This document shows, piece by piece, positions 11,910 to 16,376 of a stretch of 64,000 bases of DNA. The DNA comes from Dermanyssus gallinae (lineage: Eukaryota; Arthropoda; Arachnida; Mesostigmata; Dermanyssidae): the NCBI GenBank assembly GCA_003439945.1, contig QVRM01000325.1, forward strand, positions 80,001 to 144,000, written 5' to 3'. How positions within the stretch are numbered: position 1 is the first letter of the stretch; each line of letters opens with the position of its first letter. Below the pieces are notes generated by a model. It was given only the letters and a program-made list of their open reading frames with translations. It searched no databases and had not been told where the DNA came from. The position numbers and the translations under genes were made by a program.

Positions 11910-11930
11910 GGTTATTTAAAAGTGAAAATG

Positions 11931-14819
11931 TCACATATCCTCCAGGTTTGGGCGTGTCCAGTCTAGCAGAGTTCCGCGCACAGAGGCGGCGTTACCCCGC
12001 TGAATGTCCAGCGATAGTCTCTGGTGCAGGTACTCGATAGCTCTAGTGTCCCCTGTCGAACGGTTGAGCGCCTTGCCGACACGTTGAATGAGTTTGTGCG
12101 TCTTCGGGCCGGGTCCCCCCAGTGTCTCGAATGCCAGCGGGCGAAAATCGTGGGGGTAGGAAATACTGGCATACTTTCTGCACTTATTCGCCTCCGCCAA
12201 CATAGATGCGTGACCAGCATGTTCCGCTCCCGCACTGACCATTGAAGGGGCTAATGAGTCAGTAACGGTTGCATCCCATACCAGCATGCGACCCATCTCA
12301 AAGGACGTTAGTGTTAGTCCGTCCGGTCGTTTTCCATCATTCCTGCAGAGGCCAGGAGGCTCGAGAATGCAAGGAAAACCAGCAGACCTCAAGGCTCGGC
12401 TAAATGTCCCATTAAGAGCTGCGTGCCGGGCTCGACGACCTGAGCTTAAAGCACAAGAGAGACCATGGTGTGCCTGTGGCCCCACTTGATCGCCACATCT
12501 ACATTGGTGCGGGAAAACGAGAGCTGTCCCCAGGCGTAGCCCCGCACTAATCCGAACGGTGTCGTCATCTAGTAGAGTGCCTAAGTGAACACTGGGGAGA
12601 GCCTGTAACCAGGCCCCGGCACTTTTTGCAGAGACCGCCCGTAGCCTGGCCTTGTCAGTCGTAGTGGGGGCTTGCTCAAGTAGATGCACAAATGTCTTCT
12701 CCTGCAGTGGGCTCGACCAGCTTTTCTGGGAAAGGGTGTCCGTGGGTATGACACCGCACAGAGACGCCAATCTCTCGACTAAGGCTGCCAAAGTGTGATT
12801 GTAGACTCTTTTGCCTGTGTCGTCCAGTAACCGTTTGGCTTTTCCCGATGCCTGGGACATAGATGAGACGATGGCAGGCCCAGCCAACGCTACAGCATCA
12901 GGCATTCCCAGTCCACCTAAGGATATGGGAAGCAGAGCCTGCATGCCTGCATTGGGTGAAAGGCGTATGTTCAGGAGCACCTCCAGTGTTTTCAAGGTCC
13001 ACTCGTTGAATTGTCGAAGGTTCTCGGTCAAGTCGAAACAATTGGCCCCTCTAAGCAGGTGCGTTATCCGGGCCGCCGAAAAGCATGATCTTAGTAGGAA
13101 TATTCCGCGATGAGATCCCAGCGATGGAAGACGGCTGGCGGCAACTTCAAGCTTCTCTCTCCACGCGTCTAAAGCCCCAGGTAATCCCTCTTGGCAGAGG
13201 GGAACCCCGAGGAGCTCAATGTCGCTCTTTTGAACGACCTTGCAACCGGGAAGGAGATGGCATAGCTCCGATATATCCGGCAAGATCATATCCTCGGGCC
13301 CCGTGACGCAGACCTCGCATTTCGCGGGATTTAGGGATAGACCACTCACCCTCTCGAAGTCCCGGACTCTGCGAATATCACCGATTACTGTAGCTAGGTC
13401 ACCTCCAAGCACACCGTCGTCCAGGTACCAGGCATTTAGAGGACACTGTAGGGAGTCTATCAAGTCTTTTACGCACAAACAGAACAAAGGCGGACCTAAA
13501 GGGTCTCCTTGTTGAAGGCCGGACTGCGAAGATATAGTGGCGTGCGGCAAGACCAAATGCGACGGTTGGGCGTACGCCGCATGTACCTGGTGAAACATTT
13601 GCGGAGCGTAGCATTTCACCACGTTTAGCAAGTGGTCTCTTCTGACGCTGTTAAAGGCATTTCTAAAATCTAATTTAACGAGAACGGTTGGGCCACTGCG
13701 GGAGTTTATAAAGGCGCGGGAGGTGTGAATTCCGATCTCCGTACCGCCAGTAGTTGCAAAGCCCAGTTGATGAGAACCAATTGTTGATAATATTTCAGCT
13801 TTGTTGGCAGCACACCCAATTTTTGAAGCCAACCGTCGGAGTGTAGACGAGCATGCTATCGGGCGGAGAGAGCCGTCTTTCTTCTTGAGAGCAAATAGTC
13901 GTGCCCCAAATATAATAGGTTGAAGGGCTACAGGGGGAGACCCCCACCGGAGAATGTCTACAACCTTTGCCAGTGCATCTGCTAGTCTGTCAGCGACGGA
14001 CCCTAAGACCGCGGACAACAGATCCTGAAGAAGTCGAGGCCTAAGGAAGTCAAGACCAGCTGCAGAGCTCCTGGGGAAGGATCTCACAGCCAAACGCACT
14101 TCGTCGCTGGAGGTAGTAGATGGCAGTATAATCGGAGGACGAGATGGCAAGCAAAGGTCCGAGGGGGCCTGTGGATGTTTGTCTCGAAGAGACTCAAGGC
14201 TTTCGGACTGAGATATAAATGTGTCCGTGGAGCCAATAAGCCTGGCGGCGCCAGAGACATCTCCTTCGGAGAGCTTGACTATGGCGCGTCTACAGATCTC
14301 GTCCTCAGGGTCCCTTCTGGTATTTGTCCTAGCTTCATGATGTTCGACGTTCTCAATCCTTACACCCTGCACAAAGTCACGAAGGTTCTTTTTGATAATA
14401 ACTGTAAGAGAACGTGAGTCGTTCCGAATTCGTGGAAGGCGCAGCACTACCGGTGCGAAAGAAAACAATGAGTGCCAGGCCTCCATGTCGTTGTCCGACG
14501 CGACCTTTAATAACACTTTTGTCAGTTCATCTGCAACGGATGATCTGACAGCCTTAGGCAACACGCGGACTAGCCTTGCATGTCGCATGGCATTCTGAAT
14601 GTGTCCGATAAGTTCCTCCGAGGTGGCTGATACGCCAGTGGTTGGCGTTACTTCTATGCCTCTGACGCCGGGGTGTCTGGCGGACATGTGTCTAGAAAGT
14701 CCTCTTCTTGTGTATCTGTTGTTGCACACAGGGCAAGCGACCCTGTTAGGGTCCTCTCCAGAATCATCCGAAACGTTTTGAGGCATCGCTAAGTTGATGG
14801 TAGAGCTGTAGTCTTCCAT
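11931..14819 (-). CDS. Retrotransposon ORF2: C2H2 finger, reverse transcriptase, restriction-like endonuclease
   Basis: This is a 962-aa polyprotein that would carry out target-primed reverse transcription. A C2H2 zinc finger lies at residues 29-49 (C29, C32, H44, H49). RT motifs follow from about residue 290: [46 protein letters not shown], and the catalytic box WYLDDG at about 463. A cysteine/histidine cluster (CRCGDQ..., HHGLSC) sits at about 771-790. It is followed by RH.ALN, LEP and KRPDG at about 830, and WDATV 15 residues on. This is the PD...D signature of R2/R4-type restriction-like endonucleases. No apurinic endonuclease is present. The ATG overlaps the ORF1 stop. The frame is fully open. 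Confidence 0.9.
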   Translation of the reverse strand: MEDYSSTINLAMPQNVSDDSGEDPNRVACPVCNNRYTRRGLSRHMSARHPGVRGIEVTPTTGVSATSEELIGHIQNAMRHARLVRVLPKAVRSSVADELTKVLLKVASDNDMEAWHSLFSFAPVVLRLPRIRNDSRSLTVIIKKNLRDFVQGVRIENVEHHEARTNTRRDPEDEICRRAIVKLSEGDVSGAARLIGSTDTFISQSESLESLRDKHPQAPSDLCLPSRPPIILPSTTSSDEVRLAVRSFPRSSAAGLDFLRPRLLQDLLSAVLGSVADRLADALAKVVDILRWGSPPVALQPIIFGARLFALKKKDGSLRPIACSSTLRRLASKIGCAANKAEILSTIGSHQLGFATTGGTEIGIHTSRAFINSRSGPTVLVKLDFRNAFNSVRRDHLLNVVKCYAPQMFHQVHAAYAQPSHLVLPHATISSQSGLQQGDPLGPPLFCLCVKDLIDSLQCPLNAWYLDDGVLGGDLATVIGDIRRVRDFERVSGLSLNPAKCEVCVTGPEDMILPDISELCHLLPGCKVVQKSDIELLGVPLCQEGLPGALDAWREKLEVAASRLPSLGSHRGIFLLRSCFSAARITHLLRGANCFDLTENLRQFNEWTLKTLEVLLNIRLSPNAGMQALLPISLGGLGMPDAVALAGPAIVSSMSQASGKAKRLLDDTGKRVYNHTLAALVERLASLCGVIPTDTLSQKSWSSPLQEKTFVHLLEQAPTTTDKARLRAVSAKSAGAWLQALPSVHLGTLLDDDTVRISAGLRLGTALVFPHQCRCGDQVGPQAHHGLSCALSSGRRARHAALNGTFSRALRSAGFPCILEPPGLCRNDGKRPDGLTLTSFEMGRMLVWDATVTDSLAPSMVSAGAEHAGHASMLAEANKCRKYASISYPHDFRPLAFETLGGPGPKTHKLIQRVGKALNRSTGDTRAIEYLHQRLSLDIQRGNAASVRGTLLDWTRPNLEDM

Positions 14820-16366: not shown

Positions 16367-16376
16367 CGCAGCGCAG

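Follow-up and report, generated by a model that had tools for sequence, protein, structure and literature searches.

A Dermanyssus gallinae LINE family pairing a gag-like ORF1 with a restriction-like endonuclease ORF2

A 64,000-nucleotide stretch of Dermanyssus gallinae DNA (contig QVRM01000325.1, positions 80,001 to 144,000 of the forward strand; hereafter the window) contains, on its minus strand, a 4467-bp retrotransposon copy that we call el1 (11910-16376). The copy lies between 13-bp target-site duplications at 16377-16389 (5' side, TGTATTCATACCA) and 11897-11909 (3' side); the repeat is perfect, and a shared word of that length or longer occurred in 0 of 2000 random pairs. Two open reading frames (ORFs) occupy almost the whole element, and both are open, as an original prediction made from the letters of the window had held: ORF1 (14819-16366, minus strand) encodes a gag-like protein with a putative type I ORF1 layout, and ORF2 (11931-14819, minus strand) encodes a 962-aa protein with a reverse transcriptase (RT) and a restriction-like endonuclease (RLE). 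ORF1 comprises 515 aa when read from the ATG within the element, or 523 aa when started at a flanking ATG. The two frames overlap by 1 base, inside a TAATG stop-start joint read at 14817-14821. The untranslated regions (UTRs) are shortened to 10 nt on the 5' side and a 21-nt remnant (11910-11930) on the 3' side.

The ORF1 protein contains the three predicted CCHC zinc knuckles. Specifically, two knuckles of the form C-x2-C-x4-H-x4-C (15443-15484 and 15386-15427) are recovered both by pattern and by Pfam (zf-CCHC, E 3.5e-6), and a third of the form C-x2-C-x3-H-x6-C (15326-15370) was read from the sequence; its cysteines and histidine are invariant in an alignment of the window ORF1 with five relatives. 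A low-confidence AlphaFold2 model of ORF1 places two RNA recognition motif (RRM)-like folds before the knuckles, at residues 140-199 (15770-15949) and 219-287 (15506-15712), and helices at the C-terminus. Foldseek aligns the model with the tandem-RRM proteins SXL, HuR and UP1 over ~180 columns, the best match (E 9e-4) being the sole one at E<=0.001. A type I ORF1, in the definition of Khazina and Weichenrieder as reported in PMC4120745, has one or more RRMs immediately before its CCHC knuckles; here the knuckles are firm and the RRM-like folds are predicted at low to medium confidence. A homologue search with residues 205-375 yielded five relatives, with 51-60% identity over a 171-residue core, and a search with the whole protein yielded one weak match. 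The divergence of these relatives is comparable to that of the nearest ORF2 relatives, which fits a long joint inheritance of the two ORFs.

The ORF2 protein has the predicted order of parts, namely an N-terminal C2H2 zinc finger (residues 29-49, 14673-14735; by pattern, with Pfam zinc-finger matches below cut-off), an RT domain with a WYLDDG catalytic box (residues 312-540, 13200-13886; RVT_1 E 2.9e-19), and a C..C..H..C knuckle with the RLE motif RH...E...RPD...WD (residues 773-849, 12273-12503; by pattern and by alignment to the R2 RLE). Pfam gave no apurinic (AP) endonuclease family in ORF2 at E<=1, again in line with the original prediction, and NCBIfam gave no useful name. The RT also contains a NAFN box of putatively CRE-like form. 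Searched against the Protein Data Bank (PDB), a profile of 63 family members has R2 chains as its top matches (E 1.5e-29), and the alignment extends to column 916 and includes the RLE motif at the C-terminus; the R2 N-terminal C2H2 aligns weakly. An AlphaFold2 model of ORF2 has a mean pLDDT of 91.7 and consists, before the RT, of the C2H2 finger and helices. Foldseek places seven R2 chains in its top seven rows for this model (best E 1.9e-24). VIA-align gives its highest Z to L1 (26.4); the R2 rows extend to model residues 955-962, whereas the L1 rows end at residues 709-767. No restriction enzyme or resolvase appears among the VIA-align matches listed, which is no evidence of absence. Sequence and model together place ORF2 in the RLE-encoding group of long interspersed nuclear elements (LINEs) in the broad sense, with an RT followed by a CCHC knuckle and a PD-(D/E)xK-type RLE at the C-terminus.

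Linkage, footprints and selection across the host assembly

We searched the host assembly (958,664,175 bases, or 959 Mb, in 7160 contigs) with both proteins. The search returned at least 53 ORF2 matches (a lower bound; 48 candidates scored) and 93 ORF1 matches (84 scored), and 30 ORF2 loci were fetched and read for junction, ends and flanks; el1 is one of the copies found with ORF2 (L010). The ORF1-ORF2 junction is present in 28 of the 30 fetched copies and reads TAATG in all 28, on 27 contigs. An ORF1 protein match lies 5' of ORF2 in 27 of the 30, and the three copies that have none (L027, L035 and L036) are 5'-truncated. Approached from the ORF1 side, each of the best five ORF1 loci has ORF2 after a TAATG; four of the five are copies already counted (L010, L013, L018 and L033) and one is new (L056). 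As far as these five loci of 93 matches go, ORF1 is no free-standing element; free-standing copies may occur among the other matches.

A second family shares the arrangement. Among the ORF1 matches are 10 open copies with 53-54% identity to the window ORF1, and in all three that were read a TAATG leads into a relative of ORF2, with segment identities of 44-80%. The RLE motif is found in two of these three, whole in L059 and as halves in two frames in L058; the contig of the third, L057, ends before the motif. The ORF1-ORF2 pairing is thus real and not an assembly join, as predicted. A separate observation concerns copy L015, in which the last 1.4 kb of the locus holds a second, different ORF1 directly downstream (52-64% identical by piece).

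The other copies define the ends of the element. A T-run ~0.41-0.45 kb 5' of ORF1 marks the start of the copy in 9 of 12 upstream pieces, and L016, L024 and L025 have a shorter shared 5' stretch. The sequence AAGCAAAT closes the 3' UTR of 24 of 30 copies, ~75 nt past the ORF2 stop, and A-runs often follow it. Relative to these copies el1 is short of ~0.4 kb of 5' UTR and ~50 nt of 3' UTR, so its ORFs are intact and its ends are not; the description of the element as intact stands for the two ORFs alone, and we reject el1 as a full-length element. The start of el1 (16376) lies within 2-3 bases of a polypyrimidine-CAG stretch that is found 5' of ORF1 in other copies, in upstream pieces L040, L044 and L050 of L013, L018 and L033. 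In sequence the stretch looks like a 3' splice site, and a spliced template would explain the absent 5' UTR. A hairpin in the 3' UTR as an RT recognition signal was considered and rejected, with three strings folding no better than shuffles (z -0.14, -0.24 and +1.01).

Twenty-one of the 30 fetched copies were examined for target duplications. Three of them (L016, L019 and L033) do not have the canonical 3' end; among the remaining 18, a word is repeated at the element edge in eight (L012, L013, L017, L018, L020, L021, L036 and L039), none stands out in six, and four are ambiguous. The repeated word measures 8-14 bp, or 17 bp in L018 and L036, which sit at TA repeats; when 34-mers were drawn at random from the corresponding locus, words as long as these eight turned up in 4 to 23 of 300 draws. 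Two of the eight, L012 and L017, are 5'-truncated copies with 11-bp duplications. Of 24 copies, 10 have their 3' end no more than 60 nt from a TA/TAA array, as compared to 106 of 2684 background positions (3.9%), the ten not being all independent, as L037 and L038 are near-duplicates; at the 5' end an array is present in 2 of 9 copies. The family prefers TA- and TAA-rich DNA and has no fixed site. In particular, it shows no sign of the 28S rDNA insertion characteristic of the R2 clade: Rfam gave no match in the 64-kb window, 28S rDNA and U2 included, and the flanks of the other copies, which lie beyond that window-wide Rfam comparison, differ from one another.

Some copies are very young. ORF2 protein identity among the 30 fetched copies ranges from 100% to 86%, and both ORFs are intact in three of them within the stretches read (L013, L020 and L024), with el1 as a fourth by virtue of the complete ORF1 in the window. 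Both ORFs are under purifying selection, as measured by the ratio of nonsynonymous to synonymous substitution rates (dN/dS) in pairs starting with L010 or L020. Between subfamilies dN/dS is 0.114-0.150 for ORF2 (L010 versus L020, L021, L023, L024 and L026) and 0.131 for ORF1 (one pair, L020 versus L033). Within subfamilies it is 0.17-0.39 for ORF2 and 0.60, on a dS of 0.03, for ORF1.

Relatives in the window and known systems

The window contains several relatives of el1, all on the minus strand. One of them, el2 (53485-58083, with (TAA)n at both ends), belongs to a diverged, decayed two-ORF family with 36% identity in ORF1 and 40-63%, by piece, in ORF2. Its part order is identical to that of el1, as predicted, though its frames are broken, and the two elements have no nucleotide match. 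Element A (30404-33308, with (TAA)n at both ends) has ORF2 alone, with a C2H2-like motif near the 5' end. Its ORF2 begins soon after the (TAA)n, one 5'-complete-looking A copy was seen, and a search of 30001-40000 for the ORF1 family gave nothing below E 0.06. Element B (28690-30293) is 5'-truncated and lies between (TAA)n arrays; in the combined region (28690-33308) it is inserted into the terminal (TAA)n array of A. Two fragments of relatives lie between (TA)n arrays, a 3' fragment at 39016-39369 and another at 48534-49007, and a decayed ORF2 fragment lies at 58886-59464. Ten ends of el2, A, B and the two array-flanked fragments fall within 29 bp of TA/TAA arrays, a count that was not blind, as some ends were placed with the arrays in view; the ends of el1 and of the 58.9-59.5 kb fragment do not adjoin such arrays.

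The ORF2 family is a wide one and comprises 275 proteins at E<=1e-3. Among the 120 listed, the named ones come from Lepidoptera, a tardigrade and an octopus, and some carry SAP, Ulp1 or ubiquitin-protease domains; Ulp1 is fused in the distant relative P0036. In trees of 57 and 39 selected rows (P0004 in the 39-row tree alone), P0001-P0005 and el2 form a group with the window ORF2, to which A/B is sister (SH-aLRT 95-99%). The branch from R2 to the ORF2 family is very long, at 4.66 + 4.66 changes per column, as measured with two R2 rows as the sampled clade; R2 and L1 were the reference LINEs for ORF2. No linked ORF1-ORF2 was confirmed in viral contigs. Prokaryote genome contigs hold nine distant ORF2-relative loci, which we take for eukaryotic contaminants. 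In one of them (L007, 305-7056, on a contig of a bacterial metagenome-assembled genome) a 926-aa ORF with one CCHC knuckle precedes an RT- and RLE-like ORF (25% identity), whose first ATG follows 26 nt later; the knuckle is weak (Pfam E 0.022, below cut-off), and the placement of L007 in the tree is unsure, with long branches. Locus L008 (613-6135) holds a distant RT relative in one long frame with a putative OTU-type protease region.

Comparison with R2 supports the original description of ORF2 as R2/R4-type in part. The order of RT, linker knuckle and RLE is alike in R2 proteins of Bombyx mori, Taeniopygia guttata and Platysternon (PDB 8gh6, 9nl3, 9dou and 9nl2), and the alignment to R2 structures runs through the RLE. 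ORF2 lies very far from R2 in the tree and has a C2H2 finger, which R4/Dong are described as lacking; the description applies to the architecture, and membership of either clade would be tentative. R2 is described as having one ORF and a mostly fixed 28S rDNA site (PMC2881922, PMC7650587), whereas the present family has two ORFs and scattered AT-rich sites. Dong/R4 elements are RLE elements that, in most insects, molluscs and cnidarians, target (TAA)n (PMC7998251). el2, A and B likewise lie in (TAA)n, whereas the family of el1 has a TA/TAA preference alone (10 of 24). The same source gives R4/Dong a Myb/SANT domain and no N-terminal zinc fingers, in contrast to the C2H2 finger and ORF1 found here; Myb/SANT is absent from the ORF2 Pfam matches, HHpred having been needed to detect it in R4/Dong. 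The CRE clade (SLACS, CZAR, CRE1/2, MoTeR and FoTeR) has an RLE motif that is broadly similar in form (PMC12857005), and its known members, compared here by description, occupy spliced-leader genes or telomeres (PMC12278014, PMC12857005). NeSL/Utopia elements are marked by an Ulp1-like protease (nematode NeSL) or a U2/spliced-leader target, not all Utopia having the protease (PMC4640811); Pfam gives no peptidase in ORF2, and the window has no U2 match. BLAG elements carry, between their zinc finger and the RT, the bipartite 'Blag' motif (PMC7650587), and a BLAG identity was rejected, the best motif match in the window ORF2, A and 126 proteins having E 0.11 over 6 residues.

The two-ORF layout itself has counterparts on both sides of the LINE divide. 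Reviews split LINEs into elements with a single ORF and an RLE, the older kind of endonuclease, and two-ORF elements that combine an AP endonuclease with a gag-like ORF1. A single ORF is stated for the RLE group in PMC5678591 and PMC3636483, in contrast to the junction in 28 of 30 and the ORF1 match in 27 of 30 copies here. The predicted rule that textbook relatives have one ORF agrees with these two papers, but it does not extend to the Entamoeba elements EhLINE and EdLINE, which carry both ORFs and encode an endonuclease characterised by CCHC and PD(X)10-14D (PMC3118788). The Entamoeba LINEs thus resemble our family in having two ORFs and an RLE-like endonuclease, in a comparison with a protist made by description and not by sequence. 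Two-ORF RLE elements being already known from that account, the pairing is new as a variant and not as a kind. On the other side, the predicted RRM and CCHC layout of ORF1 is that of the I, Jockey, R1, Tad1, plant L1 and L2 clades (PMC4120745), and SART1 uses UAAUG termination-reinitiation coupling (PMC5972666), matching the junction here; I/Jockey/R1 LINEs have an AP-type endonuclease ahead of the RT, whereas the window ORF2 has an RLE.

Proposed mechanism and origin of the pairing

The anatomy, linkage, young copies, insertion footprints and selection on both ORFs are observed features of the family. We read it, with a probability of roughly 0.8, as a bicistronic non-long-terminal-repeat retrotransposon (LINE) in which a gag-like ORF1 and an RLE-bearing ORF2 are coupled at UAAUG; the best reading is a lineage of RLE LINEs whose ORF1 is gag-like and probably of type I. 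In such an element a single RNA would carry ORF1 and ORF2, and ORF2 would be translated by termination-reinitiation at the overlapping UAAUG. The ORF1 protein, with its two RRM-like folds and three knuckles, would coat the element RNA as a gag-like chaperone. The ORF2 protein would bind the resulting ribonucleoprotein (RNP), nick the target with its putative RLE, and copy the RNA from the nick by target-primed reverse transcription. The expected outcome would be 5' truncations, often A-rich 3' ends, target duplications of ~8-14 bp and a TA-/TAA-rich preference with no fixed site.

As to the source of ORF1, acquisition from an AP-endonuclease (APE)-type LINE by recombination appears the likeliest, on the basis of layout and not of a tree. 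No APE-LINE ORF1 was found among the ORF1 homologues, which is a weak negative, as only 293 candidates shared words with ORF1 and the matches are all nameless. In its fuller form, held tentatively and at slightly under even odds, this account would have an RLE lineage capture a complete gag-like ORF1 together with its UAAUG from an APE-type LINE, keep it under selection for long enough that ORF1 diverged to ~54% and 36% identity between families, and with it leave strict site specificity. If so, ORF1 would act as a transferable RNP module compatible with both endonuclease classes.

Three other accounts compete with these. Nesting of RLE elements occurs in the window, as A and B show, and el1 could in principle be an RLE element beside an unrelated gag-like ORF1 remnant, or an artefact of assembly; however, all 28 junctions, spread over 27 contigs, read TAATG, as do those of 3 of 3 second-family copies, which leads us to reject such a chance join, and purifying selection on both ORFs leaves it with a negligible probability. 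It is doubtful, though it carries real weight, that the element is an ordinary member of a named Repbase clade (e.g. CRE or HERO) with its ORF1 recorded there and the literature alone silent. The wide spread of the 275-protein ORF2 family, with its lepidopteran, tardigrade and octopus members, speaks for such a membership, whereas no title or abstract among the full-text matches listed concerns an RLE LINE with an RRM/CCHC ORF1 (a literature search with Repbase and subscription papers outside its scope), and the single ORF given for the RLE group in PMC5678591 and PMC3636483 also weighs against it.

An ancient vertical inheritance, in which the RLE group always had an ORF1 and the single-ORF elements A and B lost it, would need no recombination with an APE-LINE. 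The CCHC-bearing 926-aa ORF upstream in L007, a distant relative on a contaminant contig, is in keeping with it, as are the two ORFs of the Entamoeba LINEs (PMC3118788) and the two ORFs formerly supposed for CRE in T. cruzi, one ORF having since been verified in most species (PMC12278014). However, the L007 ORF has no significant match to the window ORF1 (best E 0.018, over the weak knuckle), A/B is sister to the ORF1 clade with A seemingly complete without ORF1, and the window ORF1 has the predicted layout of the APE-type clades listed in PMC4120745; we consider vertical inheritance unlikely. A young multi-copy family that joins both types lets the purpose of ORF1 be asked: relatives with ORF1 (el1 and el2) and one apparently without it (A) share one window, and RLE proteins can be assayed in vitro.

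Other features of the window

A further reverse transcriptase fragment, apparently of another LINE type, lies at 25684-26727 on the minus strand (RVT_1 E 1.5e-15), and an open frame at 35802-36407 on the plus strand is similar to the N-terminal region of mariner/Mos1-type transposases (an HTH_48 match below cut-off, E 3.6e-4). Short stretches at 45533-51491 and 58145-58330, between which elements lie as if intronic, may be exons of an MRP-type ABC transporter; the presumed host exons at 45.5, 47.6 and 50.2 kb have no Pfam match. An impure, long GTT array of ~940 bp extends from 50618 to 51561.

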